Part shown: piece after piece, positions 6,306 to 11,577 of the stretch
How the letters are laid out: every line of letters begins with the position of its first letter
Position numbering within the stretch: the stretch's first letter is position 1
Source of the DNA: a virus
Strand: one strand, 5' to 3'
IMG/VR virus record: IMGVR_UViG_3300033153_006443
Location: 1 to 42,591 of that record
DNA: 42,591 nucleotides
The notes under the pieces: model-generated
What the model was told of the DNA's origin: nothing
The model's database searches: none
Seen by the model: only the letters and a program-made list of their open reading frames with translations
Translations under genes and position numbers: made by a program

Positions 6306-6600
6306 CAGCCTGGCAGCCGATAAACTAATCACCGACGATGGCACAAAAGACAAACGCCGGAAAGCTATCATAGAGATATTTGTCAGGGCGCAAAGACCCT
6401 TGTCAGATTGGGAAGTCCTTCAGAGATTTAAACCCGGGAGTGACAATCTGAATTTAGTACGGCCCAGAATTTCAGAAATGTACGGGGGTCCGAATCCGGT
6501 ACTTGAGGAAGGACCGCCCGCCCGGAGCCATTGCAAAAACTGTAATGTGCGGACTTCTCAGCTTGTTAGTATTAAGCGGCAAATGAAACTTACTTTATGA
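6295..6600 (+). CDS. Winged-helix-like small protein (101 aa)
   Basis: The start is taken at ATG 6295, which overlaps the preceding gene by 11 nt and follows GAGGACGG. Upstream in-frame codons from 6103 lie inside the preceding gene. Residues 20-70 (RRKAIIEIFVRAQRPLSDWE followed by LVRPRISEM) look like a winged-helix DNA-binding fold in which a recognition helix checks pairs of alternatives. A CKNC pair near the C-terminus may bind zinc. Its ATGA overlap with the methyltransferase gene suggests coupling. Confidence 0.6.
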   Translation: MHNNSLAADKLITDDGTKDKRRKAIIEIFVRAQRPLSDWEVLQRFKPGSDNLNLVRPRISEMYGGPNPVLEEGPPARSHCKNCNVRTSQLVSIKRQMKLTL

Positions 6601-7214
6601 TCGAATTACTCCATACCGATTGCATGGATTACATGGCCGGCGTTGAGGACAAGGCTTTCGATTTGGCTATTGTTGATCCGCCTTATGGGATTGGTGATTT
6701 CACCCGAAAAAGATCCCATGGTCAAGCAGTAAACAGGACCTACTCCGTCCCAACATGGAACGACTCAACACCCGAAAAAGAATATTTCCTTGAACTGGAG
6801 AGGGTTTCTAAAAGGCGCATAATATGGGGTGCTAATTATTTCAATTGTTTTAAACCTGGTGGTGCCCTTGTTTGGTATAAAAACATAGGGGCAGAAACAA
6901 TTTCGAGTTGCGAAATAGCATCTTTGTCATTTCAAAAAAAGGTTGATTATGTTAGAGTGCAATTACGAACCGGATTCTACGGTCCGGACCGTATCCACCC
7001 ATGTCAGAAACCCGTTAAGCTGTATAAATACCAACTGGAAAAGTATGCTAAACCCGGCGACAAGATTCTCGACACTCACCACGGCTCTGGCTCACTCGCT
7101 ATTGCCTGTCACTATATGGGGTTCGACATGGTGGCGTGCGAAATCGATAAGAAATATTATGAAGACGCAAAAAAGCGATTCAGGGAAGAAACTAAACAAG
7201 TGAGCTTTTTGTGA
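6597..7214 (+). CDS. DNA N4/N6 methyltransferase, beta class
   Basis: The 205-residue protein has the catalytic DPPY (residues 27-30) near the N-terminus and a SAM-binding motif I variant (ILDTHHGSGSLAIAC) near the C-terminus. This order is typical of beta-class amino-methyltransferases. It would methylate adenine N6 or cytosine N4 in a short DNA site. There is little room for a separate target-recognition domain, so specificity must come from the central segment. It overlaps the C5-methyltransferase start by GTGA, so the two modification enzymes are likely coupled. No restriction nuclease is nearby. Confidence 0.85.
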   Translation: MIELLHTDCMDYMAGVEDKAFDLAIVDPPYGIGDFTRKRSHGQAVNRTYSVPTWNDSTPEKEYFLELERVSKRRIIWGANYFNCFKPGGALVWYKNIGAETISSCEIASLSFQKKVDYVRVQLRTGFYGPDRIHPCQKPVKLYKYQLEKYAKPGDKILDTHHGSGSLAIACHYMGFDMVACEIDKKYYEDAKKRFREETKQVSFL

Positions 7215-8440
7215 GAGAACTTTCCCTTTTCTCTGGTGCCGGGGGTGGACTACTCGGAACCTATTTGCTCGGATTTAGTCCAGTTGGATATGTGGAATTT
7301 TCAGATTATTGCCAACGTGTTTTAAAACAAAGGATCAAAGATGGAGTCTTCCCAGAAGCCCCAATATTCGGCGATATCAAAGCATTCATCGGTGAAGGGT
7401 ACGCCGAAAGCTATACGGGAATGGTTGATGTCATCACAGCAGGGTTCCCCTGTCAAGAATTTAGCGTTGCGGGTGCCAGAGCCGGAAGTTCAGGGGAAAG
7501 AAATATGTGGCCTGAAACGTGGACAGCCATTCGCACAATCCGACCCCGGGCGGTCTTTCTCGAAAACGTGCCGGGGCTTCTTACTTCGGGCGTGGAAGCC
7601 GATCCAGACATCGATATTTCCTACTTCGGAAGCATCCTCGCTGACCTGGCCGAAATCGGGTATAGTGAAATCCGGTATTGCATACTCGGCGCAGATGACG
7701 TTGGTGCCCCACATCGGAGGAAAAGGCTCTGGATTTTGGGCTACTCCAAACGCAAATATGCAGGGGGAAATAACACCGGAAAGAGCTCGGGAATTGGGAT
7801 GGAAATGGAACGAAACTCATTGGATAAAAAAAGATGGAACGAAAGCGAATACGAGTCTCACACATCAAGCGATGTGGCCGACTCCAACGAAAAACGCAAA
7901 CCAGGATTGTCCCTCAGAGCGACGGAGAAACACTCCAGCCCTGGAGTCAGCAGTAAAGTGGCCGACTCCAAACGCGATAGGCGGGGCGGAAATTGCAGAA
8001 CATTGGGAGGGGGAGATAATTCACAGCCCTTCGGGAAACCCGAGAAGATTAGCAAAGACGGGCAGCGATTTCGGGATGAAACTTCCGGTTGCGGTAAAAT
8101 TACATGGTGGGACATCGACCCGGCAGACCTACCCGACACCGAGAACCCGCCATCTTTGCGGGGGAACGGGGAACTTTCAGCAGATTGCGGCCCTGGACTT
8201 ACCGGAGAAGGAAAAGAAAGCGATGGCCGGCGGGGGCTCGTTAAATCCAGACTGGGTTTGCTGGCTCCAAGGTTGGCCCATCGGTATGACCTCACTGGCA
8301 CCTTTATCAAAGGCCCGGTTCCTAGAGTGGCAACTGGCGTTCGGGATAGAGTTTCACGATTGAAAGCTATTGGAAATGGACAGGTAAGTTTGTGTGCTGC
8401 AACAGCATGGGAAATCCTGACTTTTAATCTTGACACCTAA
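7211..8440 (+). CDS. DNA (cytosine-5) methyltransferase
   Basis: The GTG start at 7211 overlaps the preceding stop. The 409-residue product has C5-methyltransferase motifs in order: LSLFSGAGG (I, residues 4-12), GFPCQEFSVAG with catalytic Cys81 (IV), LENVPG (VI, ENV 118-120), VGAPHRRKRLWILG (VIII, about 163-177) and RLKAIGNGQVSLCAA (X, near 382-396). The segment between VIII and X (about 178-350) is low-complexity and probably the target-recognition region. It contains repeated VADSN/VADSK/LPDTE motifs that become WPTP motifs in the +1 frame. It may protect phage DNA from host restriction. Confidence 0.9.
   Translation: MRELSLFSGAGGGLLGTYLLGFSPVGYVEFSDYCQRVLKQRIKDGVFPEAPIFGDIKAFIGEGYAESYTGMVDVITAGFPCQEFSVAGARAGSSGERNMWPETWTAIRTIRPRAVFLENVPGLLTSGVEADPDIDISYFGSILADLAEIGYSEIRYCILGADDVGAPHRRKRLWILGYSKRKYAGGNNTGKSSGIGMEMERNSLDKKRWNESEYESHTSSDVADSNEKRKPGLSLRATEKHSSPGVSSKVADSKRDRRGGNCRTLGGGDNSQPFGKPEKISKDGQRFRDETSGCGKITWWDIDPADLPDTENPPSLRGNGELSADCGPGLTGEGKESDGRRGLVKSRLGLLAPRLAHRYDLTGTFIKGPVPRVATGVRDRVSRLKAIGNGQVSLCAATAWEILTFNLDT
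7341..8363 (+). CDS. Overlapping +1-frame ORF inside the C5 methyltransferase
   Basis: A 340-codon open frame lies wholly within the methyltransferase gene. Its translation is not random: it contains LTWPKSGIVKSGIAY, then FWATPN, MWPTPT, KWPTPN and TYPTPR, and finally GGSLNPDWVCWLQGWPIG. These motifs are familiar from the C-terminal variable regions of other phage-encoded C5 methyltransferases. The ATG at 7341 has no good SD, so separate initiation is doubtful. It may be an overprinted gene, a frameshift product or a translation not used here. It is reported as a candidate because the motif content is hard to attribute to chance. Confidence 0.3.
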   Translation: MESSQKPQYSAISKHSSVKGTPKAIREWLMSSQQGSPVKNLALRVPEPEVQGKEICGLKRGQPFAQSDPGRSFSKTCRGFLLRAWKPIQTSIFPTSEASSLTWPKSGIVKSGIAYSAQMTLVPHIGGKGSGFWATPNANMQGEITPERARELGWKWNETHWIKKDGTKANTSLTHQAMWPTPTKNANQDCPSERRRNTPALESAVKWPTPNAIGGAEIAEHWEGEIIHSPSGNPRRLAKTGSDFGMKLPVAVKLHGGTSTRQTYPTPRTRHLCGGTGNFQQIAALDLPEKEKKAMAGGGSLNPDWVCWLQGWPIGMTSLAPLSKARFLEWQLAFGIEFHD

Positions 8441-10715: not shown

Positions 10716-11062
10716 AAAAAACAAAATTATTAAAAGTTGCCCTTAATCCCAACGAAGTGGAAGGAAAGCTTAAATCACTGAGCAAAGCTTCTATCGGTCT
10801 TCTGGAAGCGGAAATCGAAAGGAAGAAGGTGGCCGGGGAGTTCAACCAGGAAATTAAAGCCTTTAAGCAGGAAATCAAAAATATTTGTGGTTCCCTGGAA
10901 TCCGGCAGTGAAATGCGCGATATTGATTGTGATGTCCGGAAAAATAAAAAGGATAATGTTTTCGAACTGGTCCGGCTGGATACGAACGAGATTGTCGAAA
11001 CCACCCCTATGGAAGGGAACGAACTCAATGAGGATCTTTTCGACAGTGAGCCGGGGGAATAA
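10712..11062 (+). CDS. Coiled-coil phage early protein (116 aa)
   Basis: A strong AAGGAGTGA SD (10700-10708) precedes ATG 10712. Residues 15-60 form a charged helix rich in Lys and Glu (probable coiled coil). The second half has SGSEMRDIDCDV...LVRLDTNEIVETTPM, which resembles a common small phage protein family of unknown function that carries an ...VRxDTGEVV...-like strand pair. It sits in the recombination/modification run and its TAATG junction couples it to the Dam-type gene. Confidence 0.65.
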   Translation: MKKTKLLKVALNPNEVEGKLKSLSKASIGLLEAEIERKKVAGEFNQEIKAFKQEIKNICGSLESGSEMRDIDCDVRKNKKDNVFELVRLDTNEIVETTPMEGNELNEDLFDSEPGE

Positions 11063-11577
11063 TGGTCGCCACAACACCACGGGATAAGAACAAAACGAAA
11101 CAGTCATACGAAACGCCTGACAACTTCTTTGAGGCAGTTAATCGATCCCTACCCTTCGCCTGGGATTTGGCGGCAAGCGAATATAATCGGAAATGCCACA
11201 ACTTCATTGATGAGAGTTCCGACAGTTTAACGCACCCATGGCACACCCTAAACCACCGATCATGGCTATGGCTTAACCCCCCGTTTAAAAACATTGCTCC
11301 GTGGGCTCGGAAGTGTTACGAAGAAAGCCGACTCGGGGCAAATGTTGTAATGTTAACCCCCGCCTCTGTTGGATCAAACTGGTTCCGGGATCGTGTTTGG
11401 AAAAAGGCTCTGGTCGTATTCCTTAACGGACGGTTGACATTCAAGGGGGAAACAACTTGTTATCCAAAGGATTGTATGATTTCAATCTTCTCAAACAGCG
11501 TATCTCCCGGCTGCACTATCTGGGATTGGAGGAATAAGAAACCCTTATATCATAAACCTTTAGTTGTGGGGAAGTGA
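11062..11577 (+). CDS. Phage DNA N6-adenine methyltransferase (Dam family)
   Basis: The 171-residue protein starts with SYETPDNFFEAVNR and has FAWDLAASEYNRKCHNFI, the LNPPF catalytic motif (in WLWLNPPFKNIAPWARK) and NVVMLTPASVGSNWF. This order is typical of the compact phage N-6-adenine methyltransferase family (PF05869 type). It would methylate adenines in phage DNA, often to evade restriction. It is the third DNA methyltransferase in this genome and is followed directly by a radical SAM gene with overlapping GTGATG codons. Confidence 0.85.
   Translation: MVATTPRDKNKTKQSYETPDNFFEAVNRSLPFAWDLAASEYNRKCHNFIDESSDSLTHPWHTLNHRSWLWLNPPFKNIAPWARKCYEESRLGANVVMLTPASVGSNWFRDRVWKKALVVFLNGRLTFKGETTCYPKDCMISIFSNSVSPGCTIWDWRNKKPLYHKPLVVGK

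Follow-up and report, generated by a model that had tools for sequence, protein, structure and literature searches.

The viral DNA analyzed here, a stretch of 42,591 nucleotides (IMG/VR record IMGVR_UViG_3300033153_006443; hereafter, the window), probably encodes a split C5-cytosine methyltransferase (MTase) that would act as an alpha/beta heterodimer, with the beta subunit nested in the alpha gene. We assign this reading a probability of about 0.85. Frame 0 would be translated into alpha, the catalytic domain with motifs I–VIII plus the C-terminal motif X. Translation starting independently at a second site, shortly before the motif IV codons, would yield beta in the +1 frame, and beta would supply the variable target-recognition region, an array of PTP units, together with motif IX. 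Alpha and beta would then assemble into one active enzyme, in which the alpha segment between motifs VIII and X (VADSN...) would serve largely as a linker, its letters being set by the beta frame. Since alpha lacks motif IX and beta lacks motifs I–VIII and X, a heterodimer would be the simplest working enzyme. C5 MTases split artificially or naturally can assemble from fragments (PMC3404938), which makes such a mechanism plausible by analogy. Heterodimer formation, the expression of beta, and its role in target choice are what we infer from the DNA sequence.

The MTase open reading frame (ORF) occupies positions 7211–8440 of the window on the plus strand, as do all features described below. 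It starts with GTG and encodes 409 amino acids. The protein matched PF00145 (E = 9e-34), with the match confined to residues 1–232, and phrog_363 (2.8e-52). Motifs I–VIII, including PCQ and ENV, were present in alpha and could be aligned to motifs I–VIII of M.HhaI. Motif IV (GFPCQ, 7442–7456) served as a landmark in the stop counts below, and was followed by motif VI (ENV, 7562–7570), the motif VIII region (HRRKR, 7712–7726), and motif X (GNGQV, 8372–8386). Inside this gene, the +1 frame contains an ORF of 340 amino acids (7341–8363), which is open from ATG 7341, ends with ...GGSLNPDWVCWLQGWPIGMTSLAPLSKARFLEWQLAFGIEFHD*, and matched PHROG_1008 (E = 7e-12, residues 3–316) and PHROG_26627 (8e-10). 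Stop depletion, a start-codon and Shine-Dalgarno (SD) pattern, and the phrog_1008 match together point to a beta of 311 amino acids at 7428–8363, with ATG 7428 (or TTG 7425) as the likeliest start. Between motif VIII and motif IX lies a dual-frame variable region (7727–8243), in which constraint acts mainly on the +1 frame and the VADSN-type alpha segment behaves as a weakly constrained linker. Motif IX of beta, LNPDWVCWLQGWPIGM / LNPDWVCWLQGWPIG, was located at 8241–8288, where the alpha frame is unconserved. Upstream lies the gene for an N4/N6-type DNA MTase (6597–7214; PF01555). Its stop and the GTG start of alpha share the 4 nt GTGA, an arrangement that suggests translational coupling. Another MTase (phrog_111) was found at 11062–11577; thus, the phage encodes at least three MTases.

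Both frames are under protein-level selection, each in different segments. When the window gene was shuffled synonymously, holding the MTase protein and codon usage constant, 7341–8360 stayed open in the +1 frame in only 5 of 20,000 shuffles (mean 6.0 stops). The same type of expectation was calculated for 166 non-redundant homologous genes with recognizable landmarks. From motif IV to the LNPxWVEWLMG segment (motif IX), these genes contained 3 stops in the +1 frame against ~516 expected, and the frame was fully open in 163 of them against 9.4 expected, whereas stops in the +2 frame occurred as expected, with no depletion. The suggestion of the first-pass annotation that an overprinted gene lies here was thereby borne out: coding in the +1 frame is genuine, old, and conserved. 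Thirty genes that had been found only through their N-terminal MTase motifs contained no +1 stops versus 134 expected, although upstream of motif IV their count was as expected (69 vs. 67). Past motif IX, +1 stops were in excess (163 vs. 105 expected), indicating that beta ends there.

The distribution of selection along the gene was analyzed by comparing pairwise similarity in each frame with 20 MTase-preserving shuffles. Selection between motifs I and IV acted on alpha, the signal of beta being weak or absent; between IV and VIII, it acted mostly on alpha with some beta signal; and between VIII and IX, it acted mainly on beta. In the last segment, the +1 protein exceeded all 20 shuffles in 90% of the pairs involving the window, compared to 24% for the MTase frame, and at motif IX the corresponding values were 100% and 0%. 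Motif IX is generally selected in both frames, but in the window, where motifs IX and X no longer overlap, only in beta. Substitution classes gave the same direction. Between motifs VIII and IX, 52% of substitutions were replacing in alpha and silent in beta (neutral, 28%), and 19% were the reverse (neutral, 27%). The ratio of the two classes, as counted among related-gene pairs that are not independent and against a simple neutral model, was 2.79 in this segment (neutral, 1.04) versus 0.27 between motifs I and IV. The comparison of synonymous constraint proposed in the first-pass annotation therefore favored the +1 frame in the variable region.

The same annotation had listed eight peptides as paired readings of the same bases, and all of them were found in the respective frames: GYSK (7739–7750) in alpha under WATPN (7737–7751), the first PTP unit of beta; VADSN (7874–7888) under WPTPT (7875–7889); VADSK (7958–7972) under WPTPN (7959–7973); and LPDTE (8129–8143) under YPTPR (8130–8144). 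Its idea that VADSN-type and WPTPT-type regions are two readings of one DNA also held among homologs, since 61 of the 65 VAD[STN] sites in alpha read WPT in the +1 frame. Under the 365 xPTx sites of the +1 frame, the MTase residue varied freely among D, N, H, and Y, as the third position of the proline codon is unconstrained. The WPTPT array of beta thus gives alpha its VADSN look, and "VAD(S/T)" is a passive shadow of "WPT". Betas contained one to seven PTP-like units. A near-identical unit, SPNENRQTK(P/L)TPSQxAGKHG, recurred in otherwise diverged variable regions of beta (L001, L008–L010, L012, and L014–L018), as if PTP units had been swapped, with a frequency that is biased because part of this unit served as a scan query.

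The division of motifs between the frames was then compared across loci. In 216 of 231 classified loci, among which some contigs are represented more than once, motif IX was in the +1 frame and motif X in frame 0. The spacing between the two was exactly 65 nt at codon resolution in 209 of these 216 loci, and in the window and a few others it was 43 codons instead of the usual 21. Motifs IX and X in one chain, as in a single-chain enzyme, were not seen in the window, where X lies in alpha, and the +1 protein alone has an IX-like motif. The most conserved segment of beta, LNPxWVEWLMG(W/F)PxGW, was found in the MTase frame of the single-chain enzyme of a Ca. Megaera plasmid (L005), directly before motif X. 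In a HMMER alignment, LNPDWVEWLMGYPISW of this protein aligned with motif IX of M.HhaI, KLHPRECARVMGYPDSY, followed by motif X (a weak second domain of 5.5 bits, but co-linear). Similarly, the single-chain MTase of Mycobacterium phage Yorick (L260) matched phrog_363 over residues 1–404 and phrog_1008 (4e-49) over 249–407. These results indicate that the +1 protein carries motif IX together with the variable region, the putative target-recognition domain (TRD). Prediction of beta alone by AlphaFold was poor (pLDDT 59 for the window member and 62 for the short member L192), and a Foldseek search with the second of two beta models returned no fold match.

The frame of motifs IX and X has changed in some lineages. 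Motif IX was in the MTase frame in L005 and L260, and motif X was in the +1 frame at five loci on four contigs (L014, L032/L103, L203, and L210). Repeated frame switching, as envisaged by the first-pass annotation, thus does occur in evolution, but it is rare. L260 and L264 are single-chain, with IX in frame 0, yet carry PTP-type sequence in the +1 frame past motif VIII, and are possible intermediates of such switching. Several phage genes taken as single-chain controls were not clean: L266, L268, L270, and L271 contained an IX-like motif in the +1 frame, and the annotated coding sequence (CDS) of L269 was the beta frame. The gene of Lactobacillus phage SAC12B (L265, 1129–2277) encodes a canonical single-chain MTase with a long open +1 stretch reading SGMMSNG...SSLSDILEDEVPEKYFLSSKVTEKLLKG, which may represent another +1 family.

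An internal start is the most likely source of beta, because the +1 frame is stop-free from just upstream of motif IV. At one position there, 114 of the 166 genes had TTG or GTG (47 expected), and SD-like cores a few nucleotides before it were in moderate excess (49 vs. 28 at the better position). In the window, an SD-like GGGA (7417–7420) precedes the candidates ATG 7428 and TTG 7425. This pattern is suggestive only of an internal start used by beta, and the TTG excess could reflect selection for leucine in beta instead of a start.

A programmed frameshift giving two specificities was another option raised in the first-pass annotation. In one form, a +1 shift near motif VIII could produce, beside the annotated protein, one chain of motifs I–VIII, the variable region, and IX, namely an alternative C-terminus with a second specificity. 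Such a shift would agree with both frames being open and selected, and at the five loci with motif X in the +1 frame a single shift would even give a complete enzyme. Nevertheless, it explains neither the openness of the +1 frame from motif IV, ~90 codons before the variable region and not required by a shift at motif VIII, nor how motif X would be included, because 216 of 231 loci keep X in frame 0 and the shifted product would lack it. Together with the start-codon and SD pattern at motif IV, this makes a frameshift unlikely. Two alternative specificities were likewise not what the frames offered; instead, they are complementary, with motifs I–VIII and X in one and the variable region and IX in the other.

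Beta could also be a protein of independent function, such as an out-of-frame homing endonuclease or a regulator, whose overlap with the MTase is incidental, but this is very unlikely. Out-of-frame genes within phage methylases are documented, as the ShiLan insertion in mycobacteriophage methylases is an out-of-frame homing endonuclease (PMC11855218), and a search of solved structures with the beta alignment gave no matches except spurious ones to apolipoprotein E. However, beta provides exactly motif IX, which is missing in alpha, is collinear rather than an insertion, and is fused in frame in Yorick. A ShiLan-type endonuclease was ruled out, as beta matched neither HNH nor any other nuclease family. 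The idea that the +1 frame is open and conserved-looking merely through conserved MTase codons and base composition has some basis between motifs I and IV, where +1 similarity was near the level of MTase-preserving shuffles, so part of the resemblance is a by-product. As an account of the whole frame, its probability is negligible: against it stand the stop depletion, the bias of the substitution classes between motifs VIII and IX in the opposite direction, and the choice of VAD codons such that WPT is kept. An origin by chance or composition was therefore ruled out by the synonymous shuffles and substitution classes. The heterodimer with a nested beta is the reading that we retain.

Homologs of the +1 protein, the existence of which the first-pass annotation had left to database searches, were found in hundreds of loci. 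Neither of the two outcomes named in that annotation as refuting was thus obtained. The IMG/VR relative L001 shares 38% identity in the MTase frame and has a +1 ORF of equal length, ending ...GGQLNPTWVEWLMGWPLGWTDLRPLEMGKFQQWQQQHGIY. A scan of viral contigs with the window +1 protein alone gave no match, and the better-preserved L001 was required as a query. The +1 family and the MTase family were each used for alignment-based scans of viral contigs, and the +1 family also for a scan of genomes, with the best 80 of a larger number of loci taken from each. In all 260 sequences collected under this limit, the +1-family match overlapped the MTase at +1, and none of these 260 loci had a separately encoded beta. 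Double-coding was common to more than 200 related virus and microbial genes. The genome loci listed included Pseudomonadota, Nitrospirota, Verrucomicrobiota, Planctomycetota, Spirochaetota, and Patescibacteria, as well as two Poseidoniaceae archaeon bins. In GenBank, both overlapping CDSs are annotated for phages K1H and K1G, with beta beginning 88 nt into alpha. For Klebsiella phage VLCpiM12a (L269, 1217–2089), the label 'DNA methyltransferase' was given to the beta frame, and the complete alpha frame is unannotated. Two loci, L067 and L241, each contained a tandem pair of +1-family matches, and an Escherichia coli PCP07014 homolog (L276, 601–1362) is marked as a pseudogene containing an internal stop.

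In prokaryotic DNA, few overlaps of ~700–900 nt have been documented in which both frames are selected. The present overlap is found repeatedly in sequences from viruses, bacteria, and archaea and assigns to each frame a defined part of a known enzyme; the co-evolution of two proteins sharing one DNA can be tested on it. A nested beta would explain why many phage C5 MTases seemingly lack motif IX and have odd VADSN-rich regions. It would also matter for cloning and the assignment of specificity, as alpha cloned without an intact beta frame should fail. We further consider it somewhat probable that PHROG_363 and PHROG_1008 are wholly the two frames of one widespread, dual-coded, and obligately two-subunit C5 MTase family, in which specificity would evolve in beta by gain, loss, and swap of PTP units, with the alpha segment following passively. 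If true, hundreds of phage and bacterial C5 MTases annotated as single-subunit enzymes would be half-annotated. In a search of open-licence papers, no description of this overlap in phages was found, and one may exist elsewhere, for instance in REBASE. Within the literature covered, the commonness of the overlap, the selection of the variable region in the beta frame, and the possibility for a pair of PHROG families to be two frames of one DNA appear to be undescribed.

Among known systems, a division into motifs I–VIII plus X and motif IX is already known from M.EcoHK31I. In this enzyme, the coding sequence of beta reportedly lies within that of alpha, in a different frame. By motif division, the window resembles it, with I–VIII and X but not IX in alpha, and IX in beta. 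In M.EcoHK31I, a two-subunit C5 MTase (YGGCCR), the large subunit has motifs I–VIII and X and the small subunit motif IX, and the predicted TRD was assigned to the large subunit alpha (PMC3404938). That assignment is a prediction and not settled, whereas selection on the variable region here acts in the beta frame. M.AquI, another two-subunit C5 MTase, is also split within the variable region, and L014, L032/L103, L203, and L210 divide as it does, into motifs I–VIII and the rest of the variable region with IX and X; in contrast, motif X of the window remains with alpha, and beta is nested in alpha. Single-chain C5 MTases, such as those of Yorick and the Ca. Megaera plasmid, share the same catalytic domain and motif IX but have IX and X in the MTase frame. 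Finally, alpha matches PHROG_363 and beta PHROG_1008 ('DNA methyltransferase'), which are kept as separate families in PHROGs, although in the window, L001, K1H, and L269 the same DNA encodes both, in two frames.
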